The translations under genes were made by a program, and so were the position numbers. A stretch of DNA of 64,000 bases from Arenibacter nanhaiticus (GTDB taxonomy: Bacteria; Bacteroidota; Bacteroidia; Flavobacteriales; Flavobacteriaceae): the NCBI RefSeq assembly GCF_900141935.1, contig NZ_FQYX01000013.1, forward strand, positions 21,020 to 85,019, given 5' to 3'. Positions within the stretch are counted from its first letter, which is position 1. Every line of letters starts with the position of its first letter. Below, piece by piece: positions 22,458 to 42,069 of the stretch. The notes below the pieces were generated by a model. It ran no database searches and was not told the DNA's origin. It was given only the letters and a program-made list of their open reading frames with translations.

Positions 22458-23642
22458 ATGAAAAACCACTTATCCAATAGGATTAACTCAATGGCTACTT
22501 CGGCTACTTTAGCTATGGCCGCAAAAGCAAGAGAATTAAAAAGCGAAGGAAAAGATATCATTGGGCTTAGTTTAGGGGAGCCTGATTTTAACATTCCTGA
22601 TTTTATCAAGGAAGCTGCCAAACAAGCCGTAGATGACAACTACAGCAGCTACTCTCCTGTTGATGGATATGCAGACTTAAAGCAGGCAATAGCCAACAAA
22701 TTCAAAAGAGACAATGGTCTAACCTACGGTCTTAACCAGATTGTGGTTTCTACTGGAGCGAAGCAATCTTTAGCCAACATTGCCATGGTAATGTTAAACC
22801 AAGGAGACGAGGTTATTTTACCTGCACCTTACTGGGTAAGCTACAGCGATATTGTAAAACTTGCCGAAGGGGTTCCTGTAGAAGTTGCTACAAGTATTGA
22901 TACCGATTTTAAAATGACCCCGGAACAATTGGAAAAAGCGATTACGCCAAAGACCAAAATGATTTGGTTTAGCTCTCCATGTAATCCAAGTGGATCTGTT
23001 TACAACGAAGAAGAATTGGAAGGTTTGGCCGTGGTTCTCAGAAAGCACCCAAATATTTTTGTTGTCTCCGATGAAATCTACGAGCACATAAACTTCAGAG
23101 GAGGCCATGTAAGCATCGCCAATATCGATGGAATGTACGATCGTACCATCACTGTAAACGGTGTTTCCAAGGCATTTGCCATGACCGGATGGAGAATTGG
23201 ATACATTGGTGCTCCTGAATGGATTGCCAAGGCATGTACCAAGTTCCAAGGCCAAATTACCAGTGGTGCCAATGCTATCGCCCAACGCGCTACCATCGCC
23301 GCGCTTGAGGCCCCTGTTTCTTCTATCAAATACATGATCGACGAATTTCACAAAAGACGCGACCTTGTTTTAGCCCTTTTAGGCGAAATAAAAGGGTTTA
23401 ACCTAAACGTTCCTGAAGGGGCTTTTTACGTATTCCCGGACATTTCTGGTTTCTTCGGAAAAACTTTAAACGGTAGTCTCATTAACAATGCTTCTGACTT
23501 TTCATTATACCTGTTAGAACACGCCAATGTAGCAACCGTTACCGGAGAAGCTTTTGGCAACCCTAACTGTATCCGTATTTCATACGCAGCATCGGAAAAA
23601 GAACTAAGGGAAGCGATCGGCAGAATTAAGGCTGTTCTATAA
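22458..23642 (+). CDS. PLP-dependent aminotransferase, aspartate aminotransferase type
   Basis: 394 aa, class I/II fold type I. Features: the LSLGEPDFNIPDFI start, the YSPVDGYADLK segment, PAPYWVSYSD, SPCNPSG, VVSDEIYEHI (PLP-binding Asp and Tyr), the PLP lysine in VNGVSKAFAMTGWRIGYIGA, and the substrate-binding Arg in CIRISYAAS. This is the aspartate/prephenate aminotransferase group (AspC-like). The exact keto-acid partner is not readable. A strong terminator follows. Confidence 0.93.
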   Translation: MKNHLSNRINSMATSATLAMAAKARELKSEGKDIIGLSLGEPDFNIPDFIKEAAKQAVDDNYSSYSPVDGYADLKQAIANKFKRDNGLTYGLNQIVVSTGAKQSLANIAMVMLNQGDEVILPAPYWVSYSDIVKLAEGVPVEVATSIDTDFKMTPEQLEKAITPKTKMIWFSSPCNPSGSVYNEEELEGLAVVLRKHPNIFVVSDEIYEHINFRGGHVSIANIDGMYDRTITVNGVSKAFAMTGWRIGYIGAPEWIAKACTKFQGQITSGANAIAQRATIAALEAPVSSIKYMIDEFHKRRDLVLALLGEIKGFNLNVPEGAFYVFPDISGFFGKTLNGSLINNASDFSLYLLEHANVATVTGEAFGNPNCIRISYAASEKELREAIGRIKAVL

Positions 23643-23860: not shown

Positions 23861-23940
23861 GCGTTAGGGACCGCGGCGGCATCCCCGCAGCGGAGCAAGG
23901 GATACAGACAAGGGCCCGCCCGACGAAGGAGGGAACGCCC
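23861..23940 (+). repeat. 80-bp GC-rich dispersed repeat, copy A
   Basis: Starts GCGTTAGGGACCGCGGCGGC and ends GAAGGAGGGAACGCCC. It is 77 or more of 80 bases identical to copies at 36996-37075 (opposite strand) and 39562-39641. GC content is about 70 percent against AT-rich flanks. The ends can pair (GCGTT with AACGC) and an inner ATCCC pairs with GGGAT 13 bases later. It occupies the otherwise featureless 350-base gap between the aminotransferase terminator and trkH. A small structured RNA or a non-autonomous mobile element are both possible. Confidence 0.9.
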
Positions 23941-24047: not shown

Positions 24048-25538
24048 TTAGCTGGTTTTCCAAAAATATGGTGTACATAAAATAAGGACGGTAAACAGTT
24101 CTAATCTTCCCAACAACATTAAAAAACCACACCACCATTTACCCAATTCCGGAAGACTATTATAATTGCTTACCGGATTTAGGCTCCCTAGGGCAGGCCC
24201 TACATTCCCCAAGGAAGAGGCTGCACCCCCAATGGCACTGGTAAAATCGAGTCCTAGAGCACCCAGGCCGAGTGAACCAATTATAAACAACAACATATAC
24301 AGCACAAAAAATCCGATGATGTTATATACGATATGCTCATCTACGGTCTTATTATTATACCTTACCGGAATAATGGCATTGTTATGAAGGGTACGCTTAA
24401 ACTCTAACAAGCCATTCCTAATAATCAACAAATGCCTCATCACCTTGATTCCCCCTGAAGTAGATCCGGCGGAACCACCTAGAAACATTAACCCAAAAAA
24501 TAGCACCGTAAGAAAAGGAGCCCATGAGGTAAAATCGGCCGTCACAAAACCTGTGGTGGTAATTACAGAAACTACCTGAAACAAGGAATGTCTGAAGGCA
24601 CTTTCTGCCTCTCCAAAGACCATAGGATGAAAATCGGACATTGGCACATTGGCCTTTAAATAAACAACCAAGGCCGCGATTAGAGAAAAACTGATTATAA
24701 AAATGGAATACATTTTAAATTCTTCATCAAAAAGAACCTTTTGGATTTTCCCCTTAAAGGCATAATAACTCAATACAAAATTGCTCCCTGCCAAAAACAT
24801 AAATAAAATAACTATATATTGAATCAAAGGCTGGTCGTTCCAATAGGCCATACTTAAATTCTTGGTAGAAAATCCGCCTGTAGATAAGGTTGCCAAGGAA
24901 TGATTTATAGCGTCAAAAAAGGACATTCCCGCCAATTTCAACAGCAGGGTCTCTGCCACGGTATAGCCAAAATAAATCAGCCACAATCTCTTTGCTGTGT
25001 CCGTAATCCTAGGGTGTAGCTTATCGGTACTCGGACCCGGAGCCTCGGCCGCGAAAAGCTGCATGCCCCCGATTCCCAAAAGGGGCAAAATAGCAATAGC
25101 AAGGACTATAATCCCCATCCCCCCTATCCAATGGGTCAGACTTCTCCAAAAAAGAATTCCTTCGGGAAGCGCTTCGATATCGTCGACAATACTAGCCCCT
25201 GTAGTGGTATACCCTGATATGGTTTCAAAAAAAGCGTTGGTAACACCTGGAATGGCTCCGGAAAAAAGATAAGGCAACATACCGGAGGCAGACATAACAA
25301 GCCACCCAAAAGTAACGATGATATACCCTTCCCTACGTTTTACCTCCTTCTTATGGGTACGTGTATAGAACATAGAAACGGTTCCTATGAGCATGGTAAT
25401 AATCCCTGCCAAGGATATATCCAAAGTGACGCCATCGTCATAAATACCGCTTACTATGGCCGCTATAATCATAAAAAAGCCATTGCAAAGCAACAGCAAT
25501 CCCATGAGGTGAAATATGATTTTTAAATTTAATCGCAT
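24048..25538 (-). CDS. trkH: Trk-type potassium uptake protein, membrane subunit
   Basis: 496 aa with ten or so hydrophobic helices and four pore loops of the TrkH/KtrB type: SGYTTTGAS near 108-116, LATLSTGGFST, VVSVITTTGFVT and SSLGNVGPALG. These form the K+ selectivity filter. The helical hairpin start MRLNLKIIFHLMGLLLLCNG is typical. It follows trkA with a 4-base gap; TrkA gates TrkH, so the pair makes a complete K+ importer in the inner membrane. Confidence 0.95.
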   Translation of the reverse strand: MRLNLKIIFHLMGLLLLCNGFFMIIAAIVSGIYDDGVTLDISLAGIITMLIGTVSMFYTRTHKKEVKRREGYIIVTFGWLVMSASGMLPYLFSGAIPGVTNAFFETISGYTTTGASIVDDIEALPEGILFWRSLTHWIGGMGIIVLAIAILPLLGIGGMQLFAAEAPGPSTDKLHPRITDTAKRLWLIYFGYTVAETLLLKLAGMSFFDAINHSLATLSTGGFSTKNLSMAYWNDQPLIQYIVILFMFLAGSNFVLSYYAFKGKIQKVLFDEEFKMYSIFIISFSLIAALVVYLKANVPMSDFHPMVFGEAESAFRHSLFQVVSVITTTGFVTADFTSWAPFLTVLFFGLMFLGGSAGSTSGGIKVMRHLLIIRNGLLEFKRTLHNNAIIPVRYNNKTVDEHIVYNIIGFFVLYMLLFIIGSLGLGALGLDFTSAIGGAASSLGNVGPALGSLNPVSNYNSLPELGKWWCGFLMLLGRLELFTVLILCTPYFWKTS

Positions 25539-34117: not shown

Positions 34118-34147
34118 TATATTTGCGCCCTTGACCGAATTTCGGTC
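34118..34147 (+). promoter_or_regulatory. rpsO promoter and leader hairpin
   Basis: A TATATTTG -7 element (34118-34125) is followed by GACCGAA at 34133-34139 and TTCGGTC at 34141-34147, a 5-7 bp hairpin in a leader of about 50 bases. Many bacteria control rpsO through S15 binding to its own leader; a role here is only a possibility. Confidence 0.5.
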
Positions 34148-34179
34148 ATGTACATAAAAATCATTAAAACAATATTGGA

Positions 34180-34449
34180 ATGTATTTAACTAAAGAAGTA
34201 AAAGCTGAGATTTTTCAGAAGCATGGTGGTGAAGCAGTAAACACAGGTTCTGCCGAAGGACAAATTGCTTTGTTCACTTACAGAATCAACCACTTAACAG
34301 AGCACTTAAAAAAGAATCGCAAAGATTTTAACACTGAGCGTTCTCTAGTAAAATTGGTAGGTAAGAGAAGATCTCTTCTAGATTATTTAATTAAGAAAGA
34401 TATTACTAGATATCGTGCTATAATTAAAGAATTAGGAATTAGAAAATAA
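34180..34449 (+). CDS. rpsO: 30S ribosomal protein S15
   Basis: 89 aa, the exact family length. It binds the central domain of 16S rRNA. Conserved stretches: NTGSAEGQIALFTYRINHLT at 22-41 and LVKLVGKRRSLLDYL near 57-71, followed by YRAIIKELGIRK at the end. It has its own promoter and a strong terminator and lies upstream of pnp, the same order as in E. coli, though with 228 bases between. Confidence 0.98.
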   Translation: MYLTKEVKAEIFQKHGGEAVNTGSAEGQIALFTYRINHLTEHLKKNRKDFNTERSLVKLVGKRRSLLDYLIKKDITRYRAIIKELGIRK

Positions 34450-34677: not shown

Positions 34678-36897
34678 ATGATACCAAAAGTATTTAAAGA
34701 GGTCATTGACCTAGGTGACGGTAGGGAAATTTCTATCGAAACCGGAAAATTGGCTAAGCAGGCCCATGGTTCTGTTGTTGTTCAATCAGGCGACTGTATG
34801 TTATTGTGTACCGTTGTTTCTAACTACAAGGCCAGTGATGTAGATTTTCTACCTTTGACGGTAGATTACCGTGAAAAATTTGCCGCTGCCGGACGTTACC
34901 CAGGTGGATTCTTTAAAAGAGAAGCCAGACCTAGTGACGGTGAAGTATTGACTATGAGATTGGTAGACCGCGTTTTACGTCCACTTTTCCCAAAAGACTA
35001 TCATTCAGAAACTCAAGTGATGATTCAGTTAATGTCTCATGACGACAATGTAATGCCAGAAGCTATGGCTGGTTTGGCTGCTTCTGCTGCCATTCAGTTA
35101 TCTGACTTCCCATTTGAATGTGCCATTTCTGAAGTACGTGTAGGACGTATTGATGGTAAATTTATCCTTAACCCAACTAGAGAACAATTAGAGTTGTCTG
35201 ACATCGATATGATGATCGGAGCCTCTGCAGATTCTGTAATGATGGTAGAAGGTGAGATGAAAGAAATCTCAGAAGAAGAAATGGTAGAAGCCATTGAGTT
35301 TGCCCATGAAGCTATAAAAGTTCAATGTGCCGCCCAGTTGCGTTTGGCCGAAGCTTTCGGTAAAAAAGAAGTACGCGAGTACACCCCAGAAAAAGAAGAC
35401 GAGGCCTTAGCTAAGAGAATTCACGATATGGCTTACGACAAAGTATATGCCATTGCAAAAGCCGGATCGTCTAAAAAAGAAAGAACTACTGCCTTTGCTG
35501 AAATAAAAGAGGAGATCAAAGCTTCTTTTTCTGAAGAGGAAAATGCCGAATTTGGAGACTTGGTTTCCAAGTACTACTACCAAGCAGAAAAAGCTGCCGT
35601 TAGAGACCTTACCTTAAACGAAGGATTACGTCTAGACGGTAGAAAAACAGATGAGATTCGTCCTATCTGGTGCGAGGTTAACTACCTGCCTTCTACCCAC
35701 GGTTCTGCAATCTTTACAAGAGGAGAAACTCAGGCCTTGGCCACGGTAACCCTAGGAACTTCTAGAGAAGCCAACAAAATAGACATGCCGTCTTTTGAAG
35801 GTGAGGAAAAATTCTATCTACATTATAACTTCCCTCCTTTCTCAACTGGTGAAGCTAAACCAATCAGAGGTACTTCACGTAGAGAGGTAGGACACGGAAA
35901 CTTGGCACAACGTGCCTTAAAAGGAATGATCCCCGAAGATTGCCCTTATACTGTAAGAGTGGTTTCGGAAGTATTAGAATCTAACGGTTCTTCTTCTATG
36001 GCTACCGTATGTAGTGGTACTATGGCCCTTATGGATGCCGGTGTTCAAATGATCAAACCGGTTTCGGGTATTGCTATGGGATTGATCTCTGATAGCGAAA
36101 GCGGTAAATACGCCGTTTTATCGGATATCTTAGGTGATGAAGATCACTTGGGAGATATGGACTTTAAGGTTACCGGAACCGCAGATGGTATTACTGCCTG
36201 TCAGATGGATATTAAAGTAAAAGGTCTTTCTTATGAAATTTTGGTGAACGCTTTAAAACAAGCAAGAGCCGGACGTTTACATATCTTGGAAAAAATTACC
36301 GAAACTATCGCTACACCTAACCAAGATGTAAAAGCACACGCTCCTAAAATGGTTACAAGAACTATTCCTGGACAATTTATCGGTGCTTTGATCGGACCTG
36401 GTGGAAAAGTTATCCAAGAATTACAGAAAGCTACCGATACTACTATCGTTATCAACGAAGATCCTGTTACCGAAGAAGGTATTGTAGAAATTTTAGGTAC
36501 TAATCAGGACGGAATCGATATGGTATTGGCCAAAATAGACTCCTTAATGTTTAAACCAGAGTTAGGTGGTGCTTATGAAGTTAAAGTAATTAAAATGCTC
36601 GATTTTGGTGCGGTAGTAGAATATACCGAAGCGCCAGGAAATGAAGTATTGCTTCACGTATCCGAACTAGCTTGGGAACGTACCGAGAATGTATCCGATG
36701 TCGTAAAGATGGGTGATGTTTTTGACGTGAAATATTTTGGTCTTGATCCAAGGACTAAAAAAGAAAAAGTATCTCGCAAAGCGTTACTTCCAAAACCTGA
36801 AGGATTTGTTGAAAGACCTCCAAGGGATAACAAAGGTAGCGGAAGAGATAACCGTGGCCGCGACAACCGCAGAGACGATAGAAAACCAAGAGACTAA
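34678..36897 (+). CDS. pnp: Polynucleotide phosphorylase
   Basis: 739 aa. It degrades RNA 3' to 5' with phosphate. Two RNase PH domains (about 10-230 and 310-540), with [21 protein letters not shown] in the first and [23 protein letters not shown] in the second; a KH domain with [12 protein letters not shown] near 577-588; and an S1 domain ([17 protein letters not shown]) near 640-710. The last 30 residues are an Arg/Asp/Gly-rich tail ([19 protein letters not shown]), probably disordered and RNA-binding. It is a single gene with its own terminator. Confidence 0.98.
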
Positions 36898-36995: not shown

Positions 36996-37075
36996 GGGCG
37001 TTCCCTCCTTCGTCGGGCGGGCCCTTGGCTATATCCCTTGCTACGCTGCGGGGATGCCGCCGCGGTCCCTAACGC
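36996..37075 (-). repeat. 80-bp GC-rich dispersed repeat, copy B
   Basis: On the minus strand it begins GCGTTAGGGACCGCGGCGGC and ends GGGAACGCCC. Three differences from copy A and two from copy C. It lies in the 450-base gap between the pnp terminator and rpoD. The rest of that gap (37076-37349) is AT-rich with no frame, no exact TAnnTTTG and no clear terminator; it must hold the rpoD promoter. Confidence 0.9.
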
Positions 37076-37349: not shown

Positions 37350-38213
37350 ATGAGACAGCTAAAAATTACAAAACAGGTTACCAATAGAGAAACCGCTTCT
37401 TTAGATAAATATTTGCAAGAAATTGGAAAAGTTGATCTTATTACTGCGGATGAAGAGGTTGAATTGGCACAAAGGATCAAGGCGGGCGATCAGGTTGCCC
37501 TAGAGAAATTGACAAAAGCCAATTTGCGATTTGTGGTTTCCGTAGCAAAGCAATACCAAAACCAAGGCTTAACCCTACCCGATTTAATTAACGAAGGCAA
37601 CCTTGGACTTATTAAGGCTGCCCAACGTTTTGACGAAACCCGTGGATTTAAATTTATCTCCTATGCCGTATGGTGGATTCGTCAATCGATCCTTCAGGCG
37701 TTGGCAGAGCAATCTCGTATTGTTAGACTTCCTTTAAACAAGATTGGATCTATCAATAAGATCAACAAGACATTCGCCTTCTTGGAGCAAGCACACGAAA
37801 GACAGCCTTCCGCAGAAGAAATTGCCAAGGAATTGGATATGACTGTTGAAGACGTAAAACAATCCCTAAAAAACTCTGGACGCCACGTATCCATGGATGC
37901 CCCTTTGATCGACGGGGAAGATTCTAACCTCTACGATGTATTGCGAAGTGGAGAATCGCCAAACCCAGATAGGGAATTATTACACGAGTCTCTTAGAACA
38001 GAAATAGAAAGAGCTTTAGAAACCTTAACCCCAAGAGAAGCCGATGTTATCCGTTTATATTTCGGATTGGCAGGACAGCACTCTATGACCTTGGAAGAAA
38101 TTGGAGAAACTTTTGACCTTACAAGAGAAAGAGTACGTCAAATTAAGGAAAAAGCCATCAGAAGGTTAAAACATACTTCTAGAAGTAAAATTCTAAAAAC
38201 TTATTTAGGATAA
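37350..38213 (+). CDS. rpoD: Primary RNA polymerase sigma factor
   Basis: 287 aa, much shorter than the E. coli protein: region 1.1 and the non-conserved insert are absent, as usual in Bacteroidota. Regions seen in order: 1.2 ([20 protein letters not shown], 18-37), 2.1-2.4 with [19 protein letters not shown] and the [13 protein letters not shown] promoter-melting helix, 3 ([15 protein letters not shown]), and 4.2 with the helix-turn-helix [20 protein letters not shown]. It recognises the TAnnTTTG promoters seen in this window. A terminator follows. Confidence 0.97.
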
Positions 38214-38375: not shown

Positions 38376-38831
38376 ATGCCCTACAATATTGTTCTTATAG
38401 AACCCGAAATTCCGATGAATACCGGAAACATCGGTAGATTAAGTTTAGCCACCGGAGCAAACCTTCACCTGGTAAAACCCTTTGGTTTTGAATTGGATGA
38501 CAAACGAGTTAAACGTGCCGGCCTGGATTACTGGCAACATATTTCGCTTTTTATCTATGAAAGTACCGAGGATTTTTTTGCCACTCATAAAGACAAGGAA
38601 ATGGCATTCTTCTCTAGTCATGGTGAAAAGGACCATTGGTCAATAGACTTTAAGGAAGACATGTTTTTTGTTTTTGGCAAGGAATCCAAGGGGCTCTCAA
38701 ACGAAATCACGGACAACAACCAAGACAAATTATATAAAATTCCCTTATACAGTCCACATATACGCAGCTTAAATTTAGCCAATGCGGTGAGTATTGTCAT
38801 GTATGAAGGCCTAAGAAGTCTTCGCAGCTAA
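38376..38831 (+). CDS. trmL: tRNA (cytidine/uridine-2'-O)-methyltransferase
   Basis: 151 aa SPOUT enzyme that methylates the ribose at wobble position 34 of tRNA-Leu in characterised members. Motifs: the IEPEIPMNTGNIGRLSLATG start, KPFGFELDDKRVKRAGLDYW, FGKESKGL and IPLYSPHIRSLNLANAV with the knot-forming C-terminus. It lies only 20 bases after the rpoD terminator, so its promoter may overlap that hairpin. Confidence 0.95.
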   Translation: MPYNIVLIEPEIPMNTGNIGRLSLATGANLHLVKPFGFELDDKRVKRAGLDYWQHISLFIYESTEDFFATHKDKEMAFFSSHGEKDHWSIDFKEDMFFVFGKESKGLSNEITDNNQDKLYKIPLYSPHIRSLNLANAVSIVMYEGLRSLRS

Positions 38832-38906
38832 GATTTTTTTAGATCCAGCATCCTGCTACCAACCGCTATTCCTTTAGGAGATGTAAGGTATGCTTTGGCA
38901 TTTTAC

Positions 38907-38914
38907 TATATTTG
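38907..38914 (+). promoter_or_regulatory. -7 element TATATTTG of the FKBP gene
   Basis: TAnnTTTG match 33 bases before the ATG. Confidence 0.58.
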
Positions 38915-38939
38915 TGCCGTTTTAAAATAATAGAACCTT

Positions 38940-39398
38940 ATGAAGTATACCTTTTTTGCACTAGTATTTGCCCTGTTTATTTCGTGTGATGACGATAAGA
39001 AAGCAGAGGATATAGATTATGTTGCCAAGAATGAATTGGAAATTACCGAGTATATTAAAGACAACAGCCTAAACGCCCAAAAAGGTGAAAATGGCCTGTA
39101 TTATGTCATCGATGAACCGGGAGAGGGAAAACAACCTACTGCCTCTTCGCAAGTAACCGTTGCCTATAAGGGAACTTTTATCAACGGAAAAAAATTCGAT
39201 GAAAGTGGTGCAGAGGGCATAACTTTTGGCTTAAACCAAGTGATTAGTGGTTGGACCATGGGCATCCCTTATTTTAAAGAAGGTGGTAGCGGTATGCTTT
39301 TAGTACCGGCACATTTAGGATATGGAAATAGAGATTACGGGCCAATCCCTGGCGGTTCTGTGCTTATTTTTGATGTAAAACTCATCGCTGTCAATTAA
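38940..39398 (+). CDS. FKBP-type peptidyl-prolyl isomerase, lipoprotein
   Basis: 152 aa. A lipobox (LFISC, C16) follows a short hydrophobic signal, so it is periplasm-facing and lipid-anchored. The FKBP domain spans about 50-150: VTVAYKGTFINGKKFDES, VISGWTMGIPYFKEGG and the LLVPAHLGYGNR segment with GGSVLIFDVKLIAV at the end, keeping the aromatic active-site residues. It assists folding of exported proteins. Similar FKBP lipoproteins (GldI-type) are linked to gliding in flavobacteria; no gld gene is adjacent, so no symbol is given. Confidence 0.92.
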   Translation: MKYTFFALVFALFISCDDDKKAEDIDYVAKNELEITEYIKDNSLNAQKGENGLYYVIDEPGEGKQPTASSQVTVAYKGTFINGKKFDESGAEGITFGLNQVISGWTMGIPYFKEGGSGMLLVPAHLGYGNRDYGPIPGGSVLIFDVKLIAVN

Positions 39399-39561: not shown

Positions 39562-39641
39562 GCGTTAGGGACCGAGGCGGCATCCCCGCAGCGTAGCAAG
39601 GGATACAGCCAAGGGCCCGCCCGACGAAGGAGGGAACGCCC
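39562..39641 (+). repeat. 80-bp GC-rich dispersed repeat, copy C
   Basis: Begins GCGTTAGGGACCGAGGCGGC and ends GGGAACGCCC. It sits in the gap of about 380 bases between the FKBP terminator and the radical SAM gene. The remainder of that gap holds a small hairpin (GCCTTG 39742-39747 with CAAGGC 39761-39766) and a -7 element at 39810. Confidence 0.9.
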
Positions 39642-39870: not shown

Positions 39871-42069
39871 TTGAAAGACATTCTCCTTCTTACGCCTCCC
39901 TTTACCCAATTAAACACCCCTTATCCGGCAACCGCCTATTTAAAAGGGTTCTTAAACACCAAAAACATTGGGAGTTTTCAGATAGATTTGGGCATTGAGG
40001 TTATTTTGGCCATTTTTTCAAAAAAAGGACTGGAAAACATATTTGCATTGGCCGAAAAAAACCAACGGATAGTGACAGCGAATGCAGGGCGTATTTTTGC
40101 TTTACAACACCACTATTTAAAGACCATAGATCCTGTTATTTCTTTTTTACAGGGCCATAATGCTACCCTGGCCAGACAGATATGTACTGATGATTTTTTG
40201 CCACAGGCTTCTAGATTTCATCAGTTGGACGATATGGAATGGGCATTTGGCGCTATGGGCACCCAAGACAAGGCCAAACATTTGGCTACGCTGTACTTAG
40301 AAGATCTCTCCGATTTTATCGTGGAATGTATAGACGAAAATTTTGGTTTTAGCCGCTATGCAGAACGCTTGGGAAGAAGTGCCAATTCTTTTGACGAACT
40401 GTATCAGCATTTACAAAAGGAGCCTACCTATATAGACCGTATTACCCTAAATATTTTGGAACAACGCCTAAAAACCGTGCAACCAAAACTGGTCTGTATT
40501 TCTGTTCCCTTCCCTGGCAATTTATACAGCGCCTTTAAATGCGCGCAGTTCATTAAAGCGCATTATCCCGGAATTAAAACTTCTATGGGCGGCGGATTTC
40601 CAAATACGGAATTGCGATCGCTCACCGATACCAGGGTTTTCGAATTCTTTGATTTTATTACCCTAGACGACGGAGAGCTTCCTATAGAGCTTTTGGTATC
40701 GCATATTACCAATACCGAGCCAGCGCAAGAACAGCCGGAATTTAAACGGACCTATGTCCTTGAACACGGAGCGGTATCGTACCATAACTCCTCCCCAAGG
40801 CCAGACTACAAACAAAGTCAGGTAGGCACCCCAGACTATTCGGATCTGCTTTTGGACAAGTATATTTCCGTTATAGAAATTGCCAATCCCATGCACAGCC
40901 TTTGGAGCGATGGCCGATGGAACAAGCTTACTATGGCCCACGGTTGTTATTGGGGAAAATGTACTTTTTGCGATATCTCCCTAGATTATATAAAAATCTA
41001 CGAACCTATTGCTGCCAAACTTTTGGTAGACAGAATGGAAGAGCTCATAGAAACCACCGGGGAAAGAGGTTTTCATTTTGTAGATGAGGCGGCTCCCCCG
41101 GCCCTTATGCGTGCTTTGGCGCTCGAAATTATAAAACGGAAATTAACCGTTACCTGGTGGACCAATATCCGATTTGAGAAAAGTTTTAGCCGCGACCTAT
41201 GCGTGTTGTTAAAAACATCGGGCTGCATTGCTATTTCGGGCGGATTGGAAGTGGCATCGGACCGATTATTGGCCTTGATAAAAAAAGGGGTTACCGTTAC
41301 CCAAGTAGCCCAAGTAACCAGAAACTTAACAGAGTCGGGAATCATGGTACACGCTTACCTTATGTACGGGTATCCTACCCAAACTGTTCAGGAGACCGTA
41401 GATAGCCTTGAAATGGTTCGACAAATGTTTGAGCTTGGAGTATTACAATCGGGCTTCTGGCATCAATTTGCCCTTACGGCCCACAGTCCTATTGGCTTAA
41501 ATCCGTCGGAATACAAAATAGTCCCACAATACGAAGAAATAAGCTTTGCCAACAATGATGTGCAGTTTATTGACAAAACCGGTATCGATCATGAACAATT
41601 TAGTTATGGGCTTAAAAAATCGCTCTTCAATTTTATGCACGGCATTTGCTTTGACTATCCCTTGCAGGACTGGTTCGATTTTAAAATCCCAAAAACTACT
41701 ATCGCCCCCAATTTTATCGAAACAGCACTAAACGCGGAACCTGTGTTTACCAATAAACAAAATGCCAAAATTGTCTGGTTGGGAAACCCACCATTGGTAC
41801 AAACCCTGACAAAATCGAAAAAAGGACAAAGTTGGGAACTATTAAAACTAAGCTTTCATGACAAAACAGAAACGGTCACTATTTCGGTCGACAAGGAAAA
41901 AGGAGCATGGCTTTTGGATACTTTAGGCAAAATATCGCCTTATAAAGATAAAACCCTTACTTTTTCTCAATTAAAAGCAGATTTTGAAACTTCTTTTGAT
42001 GACTTCGAGCTTTTTTGGTATTCAAAACCCTTATCGGTTTTAAAAAATCATGGCTTATTAGTACTTTAA
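39871..42069 (+). CDS. B12-binding-domain radical SAM protein (TTG start)
   Basis: 732 aa from TTG at 39871. An in-frame stop lies at 39856 and the first ATG is far inside (residue 122), while the start KDILLLTPPFTQLNTPYPA is clearly the conserved N-terminus of this group, so TTG is the only sensible start. A Rossmann-like B12-binding region at about 200-245 ends in SMGGGFPNTELR. The radical SAM cluster motif is HGCYWGKCTFCD with C359, C364 and C367, a CX4CX2C spacing rather than the usual CX3CX2C. A typical TIM-barrel follows, with ISGGLEVASDRLLALIKKGV and AYLMYGYP. No DXHXXG cobalamin motif was noticed. The substrate is unknown; cytosolic. Confidence 0.87.
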   Translation: MKDILLLTPPFTQLNTPYPATAYLKGFLNTKNIGSFQIDLGIEVILAIFSKKGLENIFALAEKNQRIVTANAGRIFALQHHYLKTIDPVISFLQGHNATLARQICTDDFLPQASRFHQLDDMEWAFGAMGTQDKAKHLATLYLEDLSDFIVECIDENFGFSRYAERLGRSANSFDELYQHLQKEPTYIDRITLNILEQRLKTVQPKLVCISVPFPGNLYSAFKCAQFIKAHYPGIKTSMGGGFPNTELRSLTDTRVFEFFDFITLDDGELPIELLVSHITNTEPAQEQPEFKRTYVLEHGAVSYHNSSPRPDYKQSQVGTPDYSDLLLDKYISVIEIANPMHSLWSDGRWNKLTMAHGCYWGKCTFCDISLDYIKIYEPIAAKLLVDRMEELIETTGERGFHFVDEAAPPALMRALALEIIKRKLTVTWWTNIRFEKSFSRDLCVLLKTSGCIAISGGLEVASDRLLALIKKGVTVTQVAQVTRNLTESGIMVHAYLMYGYPTQTVQETVDSLEMVRQMFELGVLQSGFWHQFALTAHSPIGLNPSEYKIVPQYEEISFANNDVQFIDKTGIDHEQFSYGLKKSLFNFMHGICFDYPLQDWFDFKIPKTTIAPNFIETALNAEPVFTNKQNAKIVWLGNPPLVQTLTKSKKGQSWELLKLSFHDKTETVTISVDKEKGAWLLDTLGKISPYKDKTLTFSQLKADFETSFDDFELFWYSKPLSVLKNHGLLVL

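Follow-up and report, generated by a model that had tools for sequence, protein, structure and literature searches.

The 80-bp, GC-rich subfamily of the Flavo-1 repeats and its strand alternation in the genome of Arenibacter nanhaiticus

The 80-bp unit in the window and its fold

The window, i.e. the whole stretch of 64,000 nucleotides of Arenibacter nanhaiticus DNA that was analysed, harbours three copies of an 80-bp unit (Table 1). Counted from the sequences, the three pairs of copies differ at 3, 3 and 2 positions, the GC content of the copies is 70–71% compared to 38.6% for the window, and an AAA follows each of the three. Coordinates, strands and these features agree with the first-pass annotation, which had described a repeat of about 70 percent GC in an AT-rich genome with two to three substitutions between copies and an AAA after each. 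It had also placed the changes mainly in loops and junctions, and three of the four variable positions are indeed situated in loops, the fourth (position 48) belonging to a two-pair helix; nor was any transposase frame seen inside the unit, as it had stated when setting the unit apart from insertion sequences.

Elsewhere in the window an S15-Flavobacteria ribosomal leader (RF03161) is found at 34118–34182 (+) before the S15 gene (34180–34449). Between the sigma-70 gene and copy 3, at 38376–39398, lie a gene for a SpoU-type methylase and the FKBP gene, and the open reading frames beginning at 38376 and 38940 are missing in the four Arenibacter loci compared. Two explanations could be ruled out for the window: a composite transposon carrying genes between divergent ends, the gene order at copies 2 and 3 being shared with other Arenibacter and with other genera, and a replicative intramolecular transposition inverting the segment between copies, the genes being without inversion.

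Table 1. Copies of the 80-bp unit in the window and parts of the fold as positioned in copy 1.
Feature	Position	Strand	Remarks
Copy 1 of the 80-bp unit	23861–23940	+	Between convergent genes: aminotransferase (22458–23642, +) and TrkH (24048–25538, -)
Copy 2 of the 80-bp unit	36996–37075	-	Past a terminator-like site of pnp (34678–36897, +), ahead of the sigma-70 gene (37350–38213, +)
Copy 3 of the 80-bp unit	39562–39641	+	Between 38940–39398 (+, FKBP) and 39871–42069 (+, radical SAM)
Closing helix, 5' arm GCGTT	23861–23865	+	Pairs with AACGC at 23934–23938; helix 1, 99.1% of cells paired in A3 and A4 alike
Core stem, 5' arm GGG-A-CC	23867–23872	+	Pairs with GG-G-CCC at 23912–23917; helix 2, both-side changes in five of five pairs (A3)
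Core stem GC, internal loop GGC, ATCCC	23876–23885	+	GC pairs with 23907–23908, ATCCC with GGGAT at 23899–23903; helices 3 and 4 (A3, A4)
Apical loop	23886–23898	+	Long A/T hairpin in copies of the Flavo-1 type
Second hairpin CCC-GACGAAGGA-GGG	23919–23933	+	Helix 5 (A3, A4)
Closing helix, 3' arm AACGC, tail CC and flanking AAA	23934–23943	+	AAA counted over 45 copies

The element is a multi-helix unit of 80 bp, and a covariance model (R1) was built from 30 80-mers of the source genome. In alignment A3, 94.4% of 1,369 cells are paired, compared to 85.5% (sd 0.4) after shuffling and 20–49% with the partners slid, and both-side changes are found in 15 of the 20 pairs (120 cells; shuffled means 6.3 and 35.4). 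The corresponding figures for A4, consisting of 47 copies from stretches of two other genera, are 92.7%, 77.8% and 14–48%, with both-side changes in 17 of the 20 pairs (126 cells; 33.5 when shuffled). Since the structure was imposed on R1 and both alignments were fitted to R1, all these figures lean toward structure. The pairings GCGTT/AACGC and ATCCC/GGGAT, proposed beforehand from the window copies, both lie within the covariation-supported structure; in copy 1 an A at 23908 disrupts one pair of the core stem. Single-sequence minimum-free-energy folding failed to recover the conserved structure (z +0.46 as RNA, -0.20 and -0.42 as DNA against shuffles), and since such folds are no better than those of shuffled sequences, the support for the fold comes from comparison and not from folding energy. 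G-U cells are rare, amounting to 3 of about 1,290 paired cells in A3 and 14 of about 830 in A4 (hand count from the tables). This share of wobble pairs is less than expected of RNA, which leans towards a DNA hairpin or a constraint acting on both strands.

Copy number and relation to Flavo-1

A DNA search of the source genome (4,362,450 bases in 85 contigs) revealed 40 full-length copies with 95–100% identity among the best 40 of 169 candidates. When R1 was used, all 150 candidates scored (the best of 1,559 first-look candidates) were matches, the weakest with an E value of 9.6e-19, so the number of 80-mer copies is at least 150. The three copies of the first-pass annotation, which had proposed searching the genome and its relatives, are thus part of a large family, and the family reaches further: R1 matches over the full length were found in Kordia (2), Algibacter, Psychroserpens, Altibacter, Galbibacter, Flaviramulus and Spongiivirga (80 loci gave 8 such matches at E ≤ 1, down to an E of 0.048), besides counterparts in the nearest relative compared, treated below. 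A wider model, R2, matched 52 of 146 Flavobacteriales genomes, the source genome included, and 21 of 51 genera, in a survey using stricter filters where the best 29 candidates were scored per genome. Plasmid and phage collections gave no match at E ≤ 1e-5. Among viral contigs one was found, with an exact degenerate pattern, to carry a copy of the Flavo-1 type, an IMG/VR contig of 70.5 kb with the element at L217:6228–6251.

Flavo-1 (RF01705), listed in 2010, had been suggested as a possible class for the unit, together with a covariance model and a scan against Rfam. The model was built, with the at least 150 matches given above, but the scan of the window copies was blank: nothing was found at gathering score, and for copy 1 (280 bases) nothing at E ≤ 10. 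RF01705 likewise left the 80-mers of 20 loci without a match at E ≤ 5. Nine other loci on the 80-mer list reach E ≤ 0.001 at 33–38 bits, under the gathering score of 42 bits, a score that the 80-mer does not attain. The source genome itself is rich in Flavo-1, with at least 64 RF01705 matches among the best 150 of 997 first-look candidates, 46 of them above the cut-off, and when the R1 and RF01705 lists are merged 9 of 205 loci are common to both.

The relation becomes clear from the architecture. R1, though built from 80-mers only, retrieves full-length elements of the Flavo-1 type both in the source genome and in other genera. The Flavo-1 type was compared using the Rfam alignments of three RF01705 matches and the sequences of 13, of which one runs past the contig end and one proved closer to the 80-mer type. 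Both types share one order of parts, namely GCGTTA, outer stem, bulge, two pairs, 3x3 loop, GC/GC, 3x3 loop, ATC(C)/GAT, apical part, second hairpin and AACGCCC. The core stem from the outer stem to AUC/GAU, with its two 3x3 internal loops, is that of RF01705, as are the conserved words GCGGCATCC and GATAYAGC; it is seen in A3 and carries covariation in A3 and A4, and the two types occur in the same genome and in Bacteroidetes. The differences are that the Rfam model does not detect the 80-mer, whose stem is GC-rich and whose apical loop is only 13 nt where Flavo-1 types have a long A/T hairpin, and that the closing helix GCGTT/AACGC and the second hairpin of the full element are not among the base pairs of the Rfam model. 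Within the Flavo-1 superfamily of structured repeats, the 80-bp unit forms a shortened, GC-rich subfamily. The suggestion of a Flavo-1 class therefore stands with respect to architecture, ends and the wealth of RF01705 matches in the genome, but not as a direct match of the unit itself.

Genomic setting and history of the sites

Genes were called, and terminators scanned for, with simple custom scripts. Of 30 80-mer loci, 27 have both neighbours called and these lie between convergent (16), tandem (10) and divergent (1) genes. For 40 elements of both types, a set sharing some loci with the first, the numbers are 14 convergent, 19 tandem and 4 divergent out of 37, and in 27 of 39 cases of this set the neighbouring gene on the 3' side runs toward the element. 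Overlap with a called ORF is seen for one of the 30 loci at ≥90 aa and for six of the 40 elements at ≥70 aa. Terminator-like sites (within 150 bases, -6 kcal/mol or better, 63 copies against one local shuffle per flank) are enriched on the 3' side reading toward the element (25 compared to 5 in shuffled flanks) and away from it (20 and 6), and on the 5' side reading toward (22 and 7) and away (12 and 5). As all four classes of side and strand exceed the shuffle, these sites are markers of nearby gene ends and not one fixed arrangement. An intrinsic terminator was rejected as the nature of the element itself, there being, by eye, no T-run after the hairpin, and so were an attC-like integron site (by eye, a long hairpin of suitable form is lacking) and a promoter in the 3' flank, which does not match the flavobacterial -7 box.

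Could the unit act as a transcript, i.e. as a candidate small RNA or an RNA processing or regulatory element? The strong covariation with conserved internal loops speaks for it. A table row in PMC2864571 rates Flavo-1 as probably RNA, though probably not cis-regulatory, and some Flavo-1 matches in Flavobacterium psychrophilum are located in 5' transcribed regions, according to passages of a later paper which give Flavo-1 no function (PMC9723704). The same passages describe matches that are sense or antisense indiscriminately, many of them off transcribed regions (PMC9723704), and of the copies between tandem genes in the source genome, 6 80-mers are sense and 4 antisense, the counts being 8 and 11 in the set of both types. 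Together with the scarcity of wobble pairs this makes a role as RNA quite unlikely.

The two flanks of the element differ. AAA occupies positions +1 to +3 in 42, 42 and 43 of 45 80-mers and an A is found at +6 in 39 of 45. Sequence common to the flanks of other copies (over >10% of the length) is found in 24 of 63 5' flanks and in none of 63 3' flanks, a count in which the members of close pairs sit on one island and are not independent. In the nine inspected of the 16 close pairs described below, the spacers contain recurring non-coding pieces. Islands of this kind between divergent elements (contigs C36, C54 and C80 of the source genome; L157, L159–L163) share pieces, one with CCAGCTGG, and in the same islands short tandem words adjoin the 5' end of the elements. 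No excess of target duplications of 2–9 bp was seen in 60 copies with two registers tried.

A constant 3' junction at AAA, variation in the DNA 5' of the element and the presence of reverse-transcriptase genes are what an RNA-templated retroposon using a reverse transcriptase in trans would be expected to give; one of these enzymes we take, from its sequence, to resemble the group II intron type. The 5' end, however, shows no variable truncation (in a sensitive scan 37 of 40 elements start at model position 1), the target duplication is missing, and a limited search did not connect any reverse transcriptase with the element, so that a retroposon appears highly improbable.

The nearest relative compared (G012) is ~90–96% identical in long aligned blocks of contig C34 and 85–94% identical in C36, with one block at 80%. 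In the aligned part all 24 sites (19 of C36 and 5 of C34) are occupied in G012, in the same order and orientation and without extras in G012; a further three elements of C36, one of C34 and three of contig C3 of G012 lie beyond the alignment. Over the 24 sites, all columns counted, the elements are 90.8% identical, the 5' flanks (100 bases) 61.1% and the 3' flanks 77.6%, and greater nearness to genes may account for part of the conservation on the 3' side. At two of the 24 sites the type differs, being Flavo-1 in the source genome and 80-mer in G012, with an intact 3' flank and, at one of the two, a replaced 5' side as well; over the 22 same-type sites the summed element identity is 94%. Copies 2 and 3 of the window show a compensatory C-G to T-A difference between the two genomes. 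At G000:C36:95952–99315 the source genome has a segment of 3.4 kb that G012 lacks; in G012 the matches to its two flanks overlap there by ~168 bp.

Further out in the genus the picture is different. The spacer between pnp and the sigma-70 gene is 452 bases in the source genome and G012 and 186–205 bases in ten of ten other members of the genus; R2 found no element at this site in any of the ten and one in both of the former. In G004, a genus member assembled in one contig, at least 10 R2 matches were found among the best 150 candidates. As other members lack the element at pnp, matches are few in G004 and 24 of 24 sites are shared, the family appears to have been amplified in the ancestor of the source genome and G012 and to have been static since in the parts compared. 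Recent movement was not seen, every aligned site being common to the two genomes and no empty or new site being found.

Conservation of the elements above their flanks, stability of sites and exchange in kind are more than expected of dead insertions. They raise the question of a chromosomal function, in which the element would be a folded, polar site for protein binding located between operons, with place and orientation under selection and alternating polarity as part of its job; gyrase or IHF sites in BIMEs offer a comparison. The 24 shared sites and orientations in long blocks of ~85–96% DNA identity, the higher conservation of elements than of flanks, the compensatory differences at copies 2 and 3 and the fact that another superfamily type, and not loss, is found at two sites all favour such a function, as does the strand alternation presented below. 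Against it stand the few matches in G004, the absence of the element at pnp from ten of ten genus members and the little alternation in other genomes. A chromosomal function is accordingly regarded as somewhat unlikely, and is kept as the main rival because of the site stability, the conservation, the exchange in kind and two features of the alternation, the lag pattern and a p value of 0.23 given in the next section.

Strand alternation and possible explanations

The merged R1 and RF01705 lists contain at least 205 loci, 103 on the plus and 102 on the minus strand. Among the listed loci 120 of 157 consecutive pairs on the same contig are on opposite strands, a number reached in none of 20,000 strand permutations (maximum 101). 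The bias depends on distance: counts of adjacent pairs on the same and on opposite strands are 0 and 16 below 1.5 kb, 1 and 25 at 1.5–8 kb, 6 and 31 at 8–15 kb, 16 and 30 at 15–25 kb, 13 and 16 at 25–50 kb and 1 and 2 beyond, so the bias fades past ~20 kb. The 16 closest pairs of listed loci (89–1036 bp) are all divergent ('-+', 5' ends facing). Fourteen are mixed and two have both members on the Flavo-1 list only, one of these four members being closer to the 80-mer type; none consists of two 80-mers, yet 150 of the 205 listed loci are on the 80-mer list. A sensitive rescan of C36, C34 and parts of C54 and C80 revealed two more elements in C36, each completing a mixed divergent pair. The first-pass annotation had missed the alternation of strands, the mixed divergent pairs and the wealth of repeats 5' of the elements, and a literature search, chiefly of freely available papers, gave among the entries viewed no account of the 80-bp subfamily or of alternation at kilobase scale.

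A pairwise coupling fit gave, for two 80-mers, -3.1 (se 1.7) below 5 kb, -1.6 at 5–10, -0.64 at 10–20 and -0.21 at 20–40 kb, and for other pairs -3.3 (se 1.7) below 1.5 kb, then -0.92 (1.5–10 kb, se ~0.34), -0.26 and +0.10. This distance-decaying fit is somewhat better than strict sequential alternation (negative log likelihood 74.2 with 8 terms compared to 78.5 with 6 terms), although strict alternation is still compatible given the lag-2 counts: at 10–20 kb, 80-mer pairs with an intervening element have the same orientation in seven of eight cases and adjacent 80-mer pairs are opposite in 29 of 37. At 1.5–20 kb the difference between adjacent 80-mer pairs (9 same, 56 opposite) and other adjacent pairs (7 and 21) is not significant (p 0.23). 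In six other genomes listed matches less than 20 kb apart comprise 14 opposite and 10 same pairs (opposite/same: G040 0/3, G110 7/5, G148 2/0, G004 1/0, G083 2/2 and G124 2/0). Orientation by replication strand was rejected; positions in G083 and G124 looked blocky but the strands, judged by eye on stretches of the genomes, do not track the switch in GC skew.

The alternation is attributed to purging of near-identical direct repeats by selection against recombinational deletion, a cause that we infer from the pattern: avoidance of the same strand decays with distance, is stronger among near-identical copies and is weak in genomes with diverged copies, all of which fit such purging. The lack of close pairs of two 80-mers among the listed loci is attributed in the same way to the instability of long inverted repeats. 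Simple direct-repeat avoidance does not, without further argument, predict that mixed-type pairs avoid the same strand at 1.5–10 kb, nor that seven of eight pairs have the same orientation across a middle element. The latter could reflect strong couplings to the middle element or a polar function. Regarding the elements as folded, polar marks of chromosome organisation, mostly between operons, alternating so that neighbours face each other across 1–20 kb, selected in place and swapped only within the superfamily, is an unlikely proposal.

In its behaviour the family resembles known non-autonomous repeats. As in the REP/BIME and RAYT systems of gammaproteobacteria there are more than 100 mostly extragenic copies (here at least 150), a folded single strand, a preference for the 3' ends of genes and opposite orientations. 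A REP is however a palindrome of 20–40 bp with a tetranucleotide head (PMC3733652), which the 80-mer, with its larger size, is not. The REPs inside BIMEs alternate in orientation within the cluster (PMC2817692), whereas the alternation of the 80-mers runs over 1–20 kb with genes between, the copies being kilobases apart apart from the 16 loose pairs. With MITEs the unit has in common that it is short, non-coding, high in copy number and sharp-ended, but its terminal pairing is only 5 bp, and neither a target duplication nor a parent transposon was found.

Mobilisation as a REP element by a RAYT-type Y1 transposase would agree with the occurrence of PF01797 in 41 of the 52 genomes with R2 matches compared to 22 of the 94 without (146 Flavobacteriales, kinship and genome size uncontrolled). 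Eleven of the 52 nevertheless give no PF01797 match, no RAYT gene flanked by the 80-mer was found, and the sole PF01797 gene of the source genome is flanked by a different palindrome, which did not recur elsewhere in the 510,891 bases scanned (up to 3 mismatches). In the 3.3-kb locus holding this gene there is no superfamily element (R2), the nearest listed 80-mer being ~2.7 kb away. The gene encodes a 144-aa Y1 (RAYT-like) transposase (L031:1420–1854, contig C31) with its own inverted palindromes on either side. Mobilisation by a RAYT is thus very unlikely, and neither the PF01797 gene nor a reverse transcriptase is tied to the element by anything found.

The preferred reading, to which a probability of roughly 0.55 is given, is that a GC-rich Flavo-1 subfamily spread as a non-autonomous REP/MITE-like repeat, with its fold kept and its orientation purged. 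It builds on the family relation, fold, positions, alternation and type difference at fixed sites described above. Of the earlier suggestion of a REP/MITE-like element the behaviour is thus retained, and a flanking RAYT and a target duplication are not. The repeat would have dispersed over the chromosome in the ancestor that this Arenibacter species shares with its nearest relative, and the feature kept would be the fold, i.e. the closing helix, the core stem with its two 3x3 internal loops and the second hairpin. We infer a trans-acting protein that would recognise the fold, in single-stranded DNA or in RNA, while the repeat spreads and is replaced. Copies would persist where insertion is least harmful, often between convergent genes. 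Neighbours of the same orientation within ~15 kb would be rare owing to selection against deletion between near-identical direct repeats, and close pairs of two 80-mers may have been lost through the instability of long inverted repeats.

For Flavo-1 the source genome offers several handles: a homogeneous, amplified subfamily that Rfam misses, the full ends of the element, now visible beyond the core that alone is paired in the Rfam model, fixed sites at which the type differs and a strand pattern spanning the genome. If the alternation is the result of direct-repeat purging, it would be an unusually clear natural record of recombination shaping the orientation of repeats; if it does not stem from purging, it would point to a polar function in the organisation of the chromosome.
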